Part shown: one piece after another, positions 6,175 to 17,822 of the stretch | How the letters are laid out: every line of letters begins with the position of its first letter | How positions within the stretch are numbered: the first letter of the stretch is position 1 | Origin: Colwellia sp. BRX10-3 | Lineage (GTDB): Bacteria; Pseudomonadota; Gammaproteobacteria; Enterobacterales; Alteromonadaceae | Reading direction: 5' to 3' | DNA length: 64,000 nucleotides | NCBI RefSeq assembly: GCF_014077505.1 | Contig: NZ_JACGWA010000001.1 | Coordinates: forward strand, 62,001-126,000 | Made by a program: the position numbers and the translations under genes | The notes under the pieces: generated by a model | Told to the model about the DNA's origin: nothing | Seen by the model: only the letters and a program-made list of their open reading frames with translations | The model's database searches: none

Positions 6175-6678
6175 ATCATTACTATCCTTTTTTCTAATAG
6201 CCATTGTTGGCACTAATCACTAGTAAAGAAAGGTTCAGCTGATATTTTATAAGTTATTATTTGTAATGCTGTATCCTAATTACTTAGCCAGATCTATTAC
6301 AAGCATCTACATACGTATTCATATATTACCGACCTGTGGGGTATAATTAACTTGGTCATTTGATTAGATGTATTTATTGCGCGATAGGAGTGAAAACGAT
6401 ATAGCGGTTTATAACTTAGATGATTATAATCTCTGATTTTTAGATTGGGTAAATAATTGAACTTAAAAGATTGAGTACAATGGACTTCAATGTTCATTTC
6501 TCGAAAATATTAAGAAAAATACGTTGTTTTCACATGCTAGTCTAGAGCCTGTTGAAAAAAGTTACTTAGATAAATAAGGTGATTTTTCTAGGACAAGCTT
6601 ACTTGTGATATCTAATAGAATATTTTCTAGATTTCGTTGAAGATGAAGTATTGCTTTTACTGACTTAAGAGGTACTTT
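6175..6678. other. Intergenic region upstream of the amylase cluster
   Basis: About 500 bp with no supported gene. It contains the operator-like palindrome at 6308. Its right edge is the left copy of the element's 65-bp repeat. A 66-codon open frame at 6297-6497 has no ribosome binding site or recognisable sequence. Confidence 0.5.
6308..6321. promoter_or_regulatory. Candidate operator before the first amylase gene
   Basis: TACATACGTATTCA, third copy of the palindrome seen before the receptor, about 135 bp before the amylase start. Sharing of the motif across the locus supports joint control by one sugar-responsive repressor; the identity of the factor is inference. Confidence 0.55.
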
Positions 6679-6743
6679 AAAGATTGGGTGGCAACCCTAA
6701 TAGCCACACTCCGGCACATGAGTCGTCTGCTGCGGTTGCTTCC
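6679..6743 (-). repeat. Left attachment repeat: duplicated 3' part of ffs
   Basis: This 65-bp stretch is identical to 9199-9263. It reproduces the 3' part of the 4.5S RNA gene, from inside the conserved GGAAGC loop to just past the RNA's 3' end. Homology stops abruptly at both edges. It marks the far junction of an element integrated in ffs. Confidence 0.9.
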
Positions 6744-6788
6744 AGCTTGCCTTTCAACGAAATACACTATGTGAATTAAGAGTTAAAT

Positions 6789-6811
6789 TGTAGCAGTTCA
6801 TGTAGCAAAAT
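6789..6811. repeat. Candidate arm-type integrase site, left end
   Basis: Two TGTAGCA heptamers about 12 bp apart, matching 21 of 23 bases with 9146-9168 near the opposite end in the same orientation. The position, about 45 bp inside the attachment repeat, fits an arm-binding site for the N-terminal domain of the recombinase. Function is inferred. Confidence 0.45.
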
Positions 6812-7195
6812 CAATTGTGTTTAACATGATAAAATTTACCGCATAAACAACAATTAACTTCTCTATTTGCCACATTGCTGAAGTTAGCATTAGAAAATTT
6901 ATATTGAAAATCTTTGTATGCTTTGATCTACAGCGGACATGTCTGAACAAACAAATTACGCTAGCCGTTTCCTATTAGCGGACGTTCCTCATAGATAAAA
7001 ACATGAGTCTTTTGAAGATTACTTAATGCCAATAATCCGTTATGTCTGAATGTGAACAAAGCCACCAGTCACGAAGTAAAGTGAATATGAAGATAGTTGA
7101 TTAATTAATTTGAAAATTCTTAATGAAATTTGAAGGTTATTAAAGAGCAGAATCCTACGAAACCATCTGAATCGCAGAACTCTGATATATTACAC
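6812..7195. other. Non-coding stretch of the element, left part
   Basis: About 380 bp with no supported gene. Only frames of about 20 codons are present, for instance from ATGs near 6939 and 7041, without convincing signals. Confidence 0.4.
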
Positions 7196-7366
7196 TTATT
7201 TTTTTCGTAATCTGCTGGCGATAATACCTGCAATAGCTAAACCAAATAAAGCCAACGAAGTAGGTTCAGGTACTTGAGTCGGTTCAGGTCCCTCAAACGA
7301 TATAGCTAACGCCAAACTCGGAGTCAATAAAAGAATAACTGTCAATCCGGCTAAAATCTTGTTCAT
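7196..7366 (-). CDS. Micro PEP-CTERM protein (56 residues)
   Basis: The protein is 56 residues and was read directly from the minus strand. Residues 1 to about 21 are a signal peptide (MNKILAGLTVILL...ALA). A linker of about 11 residues rich in Pro and Glu follows. The C-terminal sorting signal is VPEPTS, then a hydrophobic segment (LALFGLAIAGIIA), then the basic tail SRLRKK. In this family the tail directs sorting by exosortase and export of surface proteins, commonly linked to exopolysaccharide; almost nothing is left here as a mature domain. AAAGGA stands 8 bases before the ATG, and a sigma-54-like promoter lies 46 bp upstream. The gene lies inside the ffs-integrated element. It could be an intact microprotein or a truncated relic; clean start, stop and promoter favour an intact gene. 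Confidence 0.82.
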   Translation of the reverse strand: MNKILAGLTVILLLTPSLALAISFEGPEPTQVPEPTSLALFGLAIAGIIASRLRKK

Positions 7367-7411
7367 TAAGAATGTCCTTTTAGTTGTTTATTATTAACCA
7401 GTCTTTAACTA

Positions 7412-7428
7412 AGCAAAAATCACACCAA
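7412..7428 (-). promoter_or_regulatory. Sigma-54-type promoter for the micro PEP-CTERM gene
   Basis: Reading the minus strand, TTGGTGTGATTTTTGCT has GG and GC dinucleotides 12 bases apart, as in the -24/-12 consensus TTGGCAC-N5-TTGC. The predicted start near 7401 gives a leader of about 35 bases. PEP-CTERM genes in several proteobacteria are linked to the sigma-54 activator PrsR, so the match is meaningful; no activator gene lies in the window. Confidence 0.6.
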
Positions 7429-8078
7429 AAAAAAACTTCAAATAATATCAGTGAGTTAAAATAAAATCATAATTGAACAATATTAAAGTGTAAATAATTA
7501 CGACACTTATTGGATAATAATAATTTTCTACTACTTGAAATCATCTTCTAACATTAGCTCTGACTAGTACTTAATTTAGTATAGACAAGTCATGAAAATA
7601 ATTATTGAAATGCCCACTCTTGTATCAAAGTTAACGTTACATGAGATTAATTTGGCTTAATATAAGAGAATGCTCTGAGGAAAAAGTCAGCATTACAAGA
7701 TGATACACCAACGGCAGGAGTGAGCTTGCAGCCGTCATATCGATTGTTACCGTTTTATAACCATATTTTACTTTTTTGATCATGAAATGAGTATCAAAAG
7801 TGATTTTTGGAACGTCTGCTATACAAATGATGATCAATTAGCTGCCTAGCTGCTTAAGTCAACTAACTGGTGTTCAGTTGACTTCGATAAATACTCGAAA
7901 TTTCAAAATATTAGTTCCGCTTTGCGCACAAAGTGATCTTTAAATCTAGGGCTCACAGTTGACGTTAGGAACACAAAAGCTAAAGCTTCAAAGTGGCATT
8001 AATTAGCGTTAAGTGGCGAAACACCAACCGCAACTTGGACTTGAAGAGAGCCTTAGCGACAGTGACTCTAGACTTCCA
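7429..8078. other. Non-coding stretch of the element, central part
   Basis: About 650 bp without a supported gene. A 66-codon frame at 7637-7837 shows no ribosome site or known pattern. A perfect 9-bp inverted repeat (AAGTCAACT at 7856-7864 with AGTTGACTT at 7876-7884) could form a hairpin; it lacks a T-run. Confidence 0.45.
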
Positions 8079-9146
8079 TTAAGCTGTTGTAATTCCGATT
8101 ATTTCAATTGACTCTTTAAGTCTTTCAAAAGTTACTGTTTTACCATATCTATCATAAGTAATATTCCCATTACTATGCCCTAGTATTTGAGCAGTATATT
8201 GGCTAGCAACGCCAGCATATTTTAGCTCTGTAGCAACGGTATGTCTCAAAGAATGAAAATCCACGTCTGCCTTTTCACCTGTCACATTTGATTTAGAAGG
8301 ATTATTTCTACTGAACCAACGGCTAGCAGCATGACTGTAACTTCCTTTAACAACAGTCCATTGATGAAACAACCTATTTCCAACGCATTGACTTACCCAT
8401 TCTAACAAGCCCAACTCAATAAGTTTAGGGTGAGTAGGAATAGACCGTTTTGCATTACTAGTTTTGAGAACATCACCTCGAATATGAATAACATCTTTAG
8501 TTATATCTTGAGGCTTTAACTGGCATATTTCATTCATTCTTGCGCCCGTAAAACGCCCAATCATAATAAGCCAATAGCGCCTATCACCTTTTCCATAACT
8601 ATCAGCAAACTTAAGCAACACCCTCAATTGCTCTGGTGTGTAAGCTCTACGACCTTCTGATATATTTTTCTTTTTCTCAATAACTTTTAAGCCTTCAAAG
8701 GGGTTCTCAGTTATCAAAGCATTATTGGCGAGTATCCAGCGATATAGAGCATTGAAATATTTCAGGTAACGATTGAAGGTGGTAGCAGTTTTAATCACCA
8801 AGATAGAGGCTTTCAAGTCTATAGCTATTTGTCGGGTAATTACGCATTTAGGTAGAAAAGCTAGAGAGCTTTCAATACGAGTATATTCCCTAGCGCACCA
8901 TCGATTACCGTTTTCCGCTAAATAGGCTTTGATAAGATTTGTAGTTGATGTGATTTGTTTAGGTTTAGCGGGTGGCTCTGTCAGAGCAGTGTCGTTTACT
9001 GCTGACGATGAACCAAATAGGATATGACTAACTTTTCTAAAAGCTTCTTTCTTACAACGCGTTCTCAAGGACTTCCAAACGGACTGATTTCGATAGTAAT
9101 AAATACCATTACGGCAATGAAGATAAGGAATTTTAGTCGTAAGCAT
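8079..9146 (-). CDS. Tyrosine recombinase/integrase of the ffs element
   Basis: Site-specific recombinase expected to integrate and excise the element at ffs. The N-terminal part has a YLHCRNGIYYYR pattern seen in phage-type integrases, then a SAM-like core-binding region. The catalytic domain shows the Arg of FTGARMNEIC, HSLRHT (His-x-x-Arg), GHSNGNITYDRYG with His and the nucleophile Tyr. Length (355 residues) is normal for a complete integrase. The frame begins at ATG 9158, but ATG 9146 has GGAG six bases upstream and is preferred. The start codon overlaps a TGTAGCA-containing sequence, so binding there by the integrase could repress its own gene. It lies just downstream of ffs and points away from it. 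Confidence 0.92.
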   Translation of the reverse strand: MLTTKIPYLHCRNGIYYYRNQSVWKSLRTRCKKEAFRKVSHILFGSSSAVNDTALTEPPAKPKQITSTTNLIKAYLAENGNRWCAREYTRIESSLAFLPKCVITRQIAIDLKASILVIKTATTFNRYLKYFNALYRWILANNALITENPFEGLKVIEKKKNISEGRRAYTPEQLRVLLKFADSYGKGDRRYWLIMIGRFTGARMNEICQLKPQDITKDVIHIRGDVLKTSNAKRSIPTHPKLIELGLLEWVSQCVGNRLFHQWTVVKGSYSHAASRWFSRNNPSKSNVTGEKADVDFHSLRHTVATELKYAGVASQYTAQILGHSNGNITYDRYGKTVTFERLKESIEIIGITTA

Positions 9147-9168
9147 GTAGCACTCCATGTAGCAAAAT
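9146..9168. repeat. Candidate arm-type integrase site, right end
   Basis: Two TGTAGCA heptamers matching 21 of 23 bases with 6789-6811, about 30 bp inside the right attachment repeat and overlapping the integrase start and ribosome site. Likely roles are arm binding or autoregulation; inference. Confidence 0.45.
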
Positions 9169-9198
9169 TGCTAAAAGGCGTGTAAGTCATTGAATATA

Positions 9199-9263
9199 AA
9201 AGATTGGGTGGCAACCCTAATAGCCACACTCCGGCACATGAGTCGTCTGCTGCGGTTGCTTCC
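9199..9263 (-). repeat. Right attachment repeat within ffs
   Basis: Identical over 65 bp to 6679-6743. This copy forms the 3' part of the complete 4.5S RNA gene, so the gene survived integration. Confidence 0.9.
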
Positions 9264-9319
9264 TTCCGGACCTGGCCGAGTTCACAGAGTATCATTGCGG
9301 AGGGACCAAAAGGGTCACC
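9205..9319 (-). ncRNA. ffs: 4.5S RNA of the signal recognition particle
   Basis: RNA partner of Ffh in co-translational targeting to the membrane. The minus strand carries the diagnostic domain IV core AGGTCCGGAAGGAAGCA followed by a GTGCCGG segment, within about 115 nt, the size of the E. coli RNA. The ends GGTGACCC and GGGTTGCCACC can pair to close the hairpin. Ends are estimated from pairing. The gene is the integration target of the element at 6679-9263, so the sequence after its 3' end now comes from the element. Confidence 0.93.
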
Positions 9320-9401
9320 ATAGAAGCGCTGAAAGAATCTCTTTAGCGCGGCGCGAATTATCGCTAATCAATTGCTTGGTTGCAAGCGCTAGTTACTAAA
9401 T

Positions 9402-17336: not shown

Positions 17337-17822
17337 TTATAGCTTATTAATTTCTCGAGAAACGGTATATTCTGGCGAAGTAACGTAGCGTTCAATAACT
17401 TGTAGCTCTAACTCTAAGATTTTAAATTTACGCCTAATATCTTGAAATGCTTGTTTAGGGGGCTCTCCTGCTTGCCAAATTCGCGATTTCACTTTAATCG
17501 ATTCATTGGTAATGTCTTCATCGGCATCATGTTGTTGCGAGCCCGCCGTATTTTTAGATTGATATTGGCTGCCCTGAGCAAAACTTCCCTTTTGGGCATT
17601 GCGGTTAACATGACCAACATTGGCTGGTTTTTTATCTAATATAAACCAAGCAGCGATATAAATAACAATAAACCAACCCATTCCTAACAACACACCAGAA
17701 ACCACTAGTATGCGAACTAACCAAGACTCCCAGCCAAAGTAGTCTGCAATGCCTGCACAGACACCAGCTAATTTTCCTTGGTTCGTATTTCTGTATAACT
17801 CACCTCGGGATTTGCTGGTCAT
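17337..17822 (-). CDS. pspC: Phage shock protein C
   Basis: Inner-membrane partner of PspB in sensing membrane stress and recruiting PspA. The PspC domain is at the N-terminus (residues 5-65) with GKLAGVCAGIADYFGWESWLVRIL and a long hydrophobic segment. The C-terminal half is polar, with a short helical end (LELELQVIERYVTSPEY). At 161 residues it is longer than E. coli PspC (119) because of a Gln/Ser/Asn-rich insert. It overlaps pspB by four bases, so translation is coupled. Confidence 0.93.
   Translation of the reverse strand: MTSKSRGELYRNTNQGKLAGVCAGIADYFGWESWLVRILVVSGVLLGMGWFIVIYIAAWFILDKKPANVGHVNRNAQKGSFAQGSQYQSKNTAGSQQHDADEDITNESIKVKSRIWQAGEPPKQAFQDIRRKFKILELELQVIERYVTSPEYTVSREINKL

Follow-up and report, generated by a model that had tools for sequence, protein, structure and literature searches.

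A stretch of 64,000 nt from Colwellia sp. BRX10-3 (hereafter the window) carries, immediately downstream of ffs, the gene for the 4.5S RNA of the signal recognition particle, a 2.5-kb segment that ends in a second copy of part of that same gene. What is this segment, and how did it come to lie at an RNA gene? We consider it very likely to be a small genomic island whose own tyrosine recombinase inserted it at the 3' end of ffs. A preliminary description had reported perfect 65-bp direct repeats, one of them being the 3' part of an intact ffs, with a tyrosine recombinase gene just inside, and both observations are borne out. The two copies are 100% identical over 65 nt, with starts 2520 bp apart, which is far beyond chance, and ffs itself matches RF00169 over its full length (Table 1). 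The minus strand carries the gene, whose 3' end faces the element, and the proximal repeat comprises ffs positions 49-97 and then 16 bp more. Since the terminal stem of the folded RNA reaches about 9209, the 3' end of the 4.5S RNA falls within the repeat, and since the 3' strand of this long stem lies there, a cut at this place would need repair by the element's own copy. A search of the whole genome (G000) with ffs gave four matches, namely the two repeat sites and two 18-bp matches at E 0.77.

The recombinase gene (int) is an intact open reading frame of 359 aa with a PF00589 match, although its likely start is a later ATG at 9146 that is common to relatives. R207, R305, H328, and Y338, which we take to be the catalytic residues of the window integrase, are columns that are invariant in seven aligned integrases. 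The int query found a single match in the whole source genome, the window gene itself. End repeats at an RNA gene, int near one end, and an empty site in a relative (see below) are three hallmarks of a tyrosine-integrase island that this element shows; excision as a circle, with a restored attB, is predicted.

Table 1. Features of the window element, of its surroundings, and of related loci (window positions unless a locus is named; sizes are given for islands).
Feature	Position or size	Strand	Evidence or remark
Tyrosine recombinase (integrase, int), intact, 359 aa	8079..9158	-	Pfam Phage_integrase PF00589, E 7.1e-16; PHROG integrase, E 1.6e-43
ffs (4.5S SRP RNA), Rfam core	9215..9311	-	RF00169, 72.9 bits vs gathering score 40, full model 1-97
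Folded 4.5S RNA including terminal stem	about 9209-9320	-	RNA fold
Proximal attachment repeat (ffs 3' half + 16 bp)	9199..9263	+	Sequence comparison
Distal attachment repeat (ffs 3' fragment, far element end)	6679..6743	+	Sequence comparison
Shared core (ffs-query 92-108), putative	9204..9220	-	Overlap of window, G080, and G215 repeats; terminal stem, RNA 3' end
Proximal arm-type direct repeat TGCTACA-N5-TGCTACA	9146..9164	-	Overlaps int start
Distal arm-type direct repeat TGCTACA-N5-TGCTACA	6789..6807	-	Same type at distal end of 15-kb G080 element
Weak match (82%) to proximal junction of element	6449..6476	-	Outside element, between distal repeat and glycosidase gene; E 0.48
PEP-CTERM protein, 56 aa	7196..7366	-	PF07589, E 1.1e-07
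Dispersed intergenic module A	6867..7067	-	
Dispersed intergenic module B	7720..7940	-	
G080 island	about 15.2 kb		Distal ffs 3'-end copy 35 bp
G338 island	9.4 kb		Distal copy is nearly whole ffs, 97% over 98 bp, L066:10723-10820
G654 island	6.0 kb		Distal ffs 3'-end copy 111 bp
G676 island	16.6 kb		Distal ffs 3'-end copy 28 bp
Aeromonas island	18.9 kb		Distal ffs 3'-end copy 108 bp
G528	11.9 kb		Distal copy 139 bp, extends into int-proximal region (tandem)
E. coli L189 island	10.9 kb		Distal ffs 3'-end copy 29 bp
E. coli L190 island	8.6 kb		Distal ffs 3'-end copy 22 bp
int genes with antisense ffs stretch	L066:1662-1686, L071:19436-19455, L075:1429-1453		Also L073, L067, L168, L171
Inverted-repeat arms	L190:16275-16414 and 17501-17640		Also L191-L194, L196, L174, L175

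In the mechanism that we infer, Int would recombine the ffs 3'-end copy of a circular element (attP) with the chromosomal ffs (attB). The chromosomal 5' part of the gene would be joined to the element-borne 3' part, so that the 4.5S RNA would stay intact, and the displaced ffs 3' end would turn into the distal repeat. Both the activity of Int and the circular form are predictions from sequence. The repeats of the window, G080, and G215 overlap at ffs-query 92-108 (the G215 match being weak, 18 bp at E 0.14), and we take this terminal-stem end of the RNA as the putative recombination core. Next to the core, the direct repeat TGCTACA-N5-TGCTACA is present at both ends of the window element and at both ends of the G080 element (with one mismatch distally), and the second fragments of G352 and of G083 contain it twice. 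These direct repeats at the two ends are likely to be the arm sites of the integrase.

Alignment of ffs loci from related strains, which had been proposed as the way to find the empty site, located it in G002, a genome of the same genus in which a single ffs is followed directly by the left flank of the window. The joined window flanks align with G002 across the site: the ffs-side match covers 799 bp at 88.4%, the one that leads from ffs into the glycosidase gene covers 745 bp at 89.4%, and the two meet at ffs. G002 has no integrase at E<=1e-30 and no DNA resembling the element interior near ffs. The same-genus set comprised 17 genomes including that of the window, with ffs assembled in 16. 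Strains that lack the integrase and still keep both 65-bp copies, named in the preliminary description as counter-evidence, did not appear among the other 15 loci (12-kb stretches): all were without this integrase at E<=1e-30 and none had a second copy. One sequence alone shows no more than a repeat and a gene, as would be expected if the 3' end of ffs had simply been duplicated near an unrelated int. Against such a duplication stand the clean empty site in G002, the arm-like repeats at both ends, and islands built alike, distal ffs copies included, in E. coli and in other families. The duplication would require G002 to be a secondary loss and the other islands to be coincidences; given the empty site and those islands we rejected it, and we give it almost no credence.

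The same loci contain traces of other insertions. In 13 of the 15 stretches, a gene that we take to be comFB-like follows ffs at a distance of 0.5 to about 6 kb; the 12-kb stretches of G002 and G014 did not show it. DNA resembling the proximal end of the element is present just past ffs at seven loci (G006, G007, G010, G011, G012, G013, and, weakly, G008) and at none of the remaining eight. The ffs site in this genus has been used and lost repeatedly, and since 7/15 loci hold only proximal-end relics, decay is common here. The weak junction match outside the window element (Table 1) is possibly a relic of the proximal end of an older element. If the window copy had gone the same way, it would be a dead relic fixed at ffs with an inactive Int, a reading that fits these proximal-end relics as well as the broken int genes of G338, G352, and G179. 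The window int is nevertheless free of stop codons, its presumed catalytic columns are those invariant in the alignment, and the two repeats are identical, and we find a dead relic doubtful.

If ffs is the site at which this integrase acts, then its relatives would be expected at ffs as well, and the preliminary description had suggested examining whether close integrases adjoin it. They do: among 395 genomes of the family (sampled from a larger group), 10 contained the integrase at E<=1e-30, and in all 10 int is just downstream of ffs and not at another target. Across 394 genomes of the order, a profile search at E<=1e-40 gave 10 matches outside the family, five with ffs, two with tmRNA, and three with no RNA gene in the locus, while 369 genomes of the class yielded one further match, with a tRNA gene in its locus. 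The family of G676, presumably Enterobacteriaceae since the G676 ffs-int region is matched by records from E. coli at 75.6%, gave 21 matches in 372 genomes; an Rfam scan of 12 of these loci found ffs in eight, tRNA in two, and neither in two (one of them starting at a contig end). In the genus of G303, 12 of 39 genomes had matches, and the eight loci scanned contained ffs once (with an N-terminal fragment of the integrase), tRNA four times, tmRNA twice, and nothing in one case. An Aeromonas integrase of 34% identity also adjoins ffs, and two sphingomonad relatives (25-31%) have tRNA-Gly in the locus.

Phylogenetic analysis of the integrases placed 20 ffs-side sequences on a single branch versus 18 from other sites, with support of 97/93.7, and the ffs-side branch also takes in a 21st row, which comes from a contig end. 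Support was 92/92 in an earlier tree of 12 ffs-side rows and 8 others. Broken or partial genes (G338, G352, G179, G651, G1290) and nine more matches from the G676 family (L180-L188) were excluded; several rows of the tree are long-branched, and G1072 was counted as unknown despite the tRNA in its locus. The window int sits on the branch of other ffs-side integrases in trees that include tRNA- and tmRNA-side ones. Sampled members of the lineage are nearly always beside ffs, in marine and gut bacteria alike, and ffs is the target of this lineage. It thereby joins the RNA genes that have a dedicated integrase lineage, from cold-sea bacteria to E. coli.

The relatives' islands that are closed by a distal ffs copy measure 6-19 kb (Table 1). 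No distal copy was found for G303, G283, G179, G063, G083, or G651, and since these six have none and G215 a weak one, those boundaries are drawn, where at all, from flanking genes. The interval from ffs to the neighboring gene in G283 contains an argH-like gene and is therefore not wholly island. G673 (L141-L142) has two ffs genes that are unlike each other and lie about 14.4 kb from one another; one adjoins the integrase, and the island may include a whole ffs of foreign origin. Another recurrent gene, for a small serine-type recombinase, accompanies the tyrosine integrase in the ffs islands of G080, G303, G215, and E. coli L189, L190, and L194. The loci with this gene are L065, L071, L073, L189, L190, and L194.

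The preliminary description had left open whether the element is a remnant of a larger island or a minimal satellite. Our analysis leans toward the first, with the qualification that the two ends and the integrase are intact: the window copy probably descends, by reduction, from an island of 6-19 kb rather than being naturally minimal. Over 61 bp its distal end is 77% identical to the corresponding end of the 15-kb element in G080, and the small serine-type recombinase of the relatives' islands is missing from it. What it has kept is both ends, each with a core and an arm-type repeat. Most of the interior outside int is module A-B DNA (6867-7940), a repeat present elsewhere in the genus, and the PEP-CTERM open reading frame consists of a signal peptide joined almost directly to a sorting tail, with little else; we count both as evidence of reduction. 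Modules A and B were matched in 9 of the 17 same-genus genomes, often as B-gene-A pairs that enclose differing genes. One such pair in G008 likewise surrounds a PEP-CTERM gene. An Rfam scan of 6744-8100 gave no match up to E 1, so that these modules were not taken for an RNA family; nor are they a single repeat in two orientations, since they have only a 13-14 bp inverted motif in common.

Other than int and the PEP-CTERM gene, the open reading frames of the element are short and without assignment. We identified no excisionase in the element, and besides int it has no open reading frame of the size of a relaxase or coupling protein; no packaging, capsid, or phage-derived genes were found, and of the two proteins compared with PHROG, int alone was matched. 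A single exosortase (PF09721, 149.8 bits) was matched in the host genome, so the 56-aa PEP-CTERM protein could be processed. Potentially working cargo of this kind, together with an intact int, both cores, both arm-type repeats, and a distal repeat that is still 100% identical, is what would be expected of a naturally minimal integrative element, made up of int, attachment sites, and a short passenger and moved by a helper phage or conjugative element. However, no second element of such size and content was found, the DNA outside int was matched elsewhere only at modules A and B, no packaging or mobilization sequence was identified, and nothing comparable was present among viral contigs. We consider a minimal element unlikely and favor the reduced island. 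A phage origin was also considered and rejected, since IMG/VR gave no exact match to a 21-base piece of ffs and no relative was confirmed by single protein or profile. Phage records gave 26 matches, all below 60% identity (about 24-30% in the best 8 of the 26), and plasmid records gave 48, again all below 60%, the best being a 4.9-Mb Aeromonas record that resembles a chromosome.

The kind of element is known. Like the tyrosine-integrase islands at tRNA and tmRNA genes, it targets the 3' end, restores the gene with its own copy, has int adjoining, and is bounded by end repeats; it differs in that the target is ffs, in that this copy is just 2.5 kb, and in that the integrases form a group separate from those sampled beside tRNA and tmRNA genes. 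The E. coli islands between ffs and ybaA (L189, L190; 'site-specific integrase' in RefSeq) share the integrase clade, the place downstream of ffs, and the distal repeat, but they are 8.6-10.9 kb long with many cargo genes, and the L190 type has perfect inverted repeats around int. Three further systems are similar by site. A pneumococcal prophage is likewise integrated in ffs, although it is 39 kb long, has a Gram-positive host, and is likened here by its site and not by its integrase (PMC8637289). A 19.8-kb island of P. aeruginosa lies between identical srpRNAs, so that SRP RNA copies form its bounds, by which and not by its integrase it is likened to the window element, while its cargo differs (PMC6299553). 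Finally, type I-F3 elements have ffs as one of their att sites, and the I-F3b CRISPR-associated Tn7-like transposons, which use it, move by guide-RNA-directed transposition without a tyrosine integrase (PMC11406308).

The classes of integration target given in PMC12424338 do not include ffs, the available part of PMC10121019 does not mention it, and the accessible text of a pan-genome paper on E. coli defense islands has 0 occurrences of 'ffs' and 'ybaA'. We found no description of this integrase lineage in the open-licence literature, subscription papers being largely outside the scope of the search. The earlier suggestion that ffs is a less commonly described target needs softening, as pneumococcal prophages, an island of Pseudomonas, and Tn7-CRISPR elements have all been published with this target, and the present lineage uses it in E. 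coli too. What sets the window element apart as a variant is its ffs-side lineage and its very small size. With one integrase, two ends, and an empty site, it offers a clean minimal case for studying the choice of attachment site at an essential RNA gene.

Two oddities of the relatives, an antisense piece of ffs in some int genes and the inverted repeats around int in E. coli, are directly testable. When the ffs of each of 23 loci was compared with the int region of that same locus, there was a complementary stretch scoring 16-22 at seven (G338, G352, G303, G215, G179, G676, G1290) and weaker stretches of 12-15 in the same place at four (G1263, G1303, G1158, G1207). G1365 and G1418 match elsewhere, via the inverted repeat described below, and 10 loci have a background-level score of 7-8. 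The window is one of these 10, and an antisense piece in its int was rejected, the best match being 8. Controls gave 7-9 in the sense direction and at most 8-12 for codon shuffles (20 each, 16 loci). At the seven stronger loci the piece is 16-36 nt long, complementary to the locus's own 4.5S RNA (ffs about 45-85), and located in the inter-domain linker of int; the linker is the same in both groups and, judged by eye, so is the reading frame. It tracks the ffs variant of the host, being GCGGTTGC in Colwelliaceae and GCGGCTGC in G676 and G1290. At fourfold sites, G352 and the four other integrases that have the piece agree at 10/30 to 9/17 over whole pieces, so conservation of the stretch is raised, if not decisively.

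An antisense piece of ffs in the int coding sequence makes int mRNA complementary to the 4.5S RNA of the host. The lineage might then be ffs-specialized down to the RNA: in part of it, the in-frame antisense ffs (about 45-85) between the N-terminal and core-binding parts would allow the abundant 4.5S RNA to pair with int mRNA, damping or timing integrase synthesis and making the expression of int depend on an intact target gene. We regard this as quite improbable; the match has drifted in the weaker four, and E. coli L189 retains just 75.6% over 41 bp, both of which argue against a function.

The inverted repeats belong to one of the two E. coli types. Among 5426 E. coli genomes, the L190-type integrase is present in 62 and the L189 type in 2. 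At eight of the nine L190-type loci examined, int is located between perfect inverted repeats of 139-142 bp that reach from the 3' end of ffs as far as roughly codon eight of int and include the attachment core; the ninth locus, L195, has an IS3 element there instead. The window copy is without such repeats. An inverted state of int was looked for in assemblies and not seen, as ffs and int are on the same strand in 59/59 genomes with one place covering at least 80% of the ffs-to-int query. The arms are identical inside one strain and differ from strain to strain (93 to 139 of about 140), and this combination of identity within and divergence between strains points to recombination between the arms.
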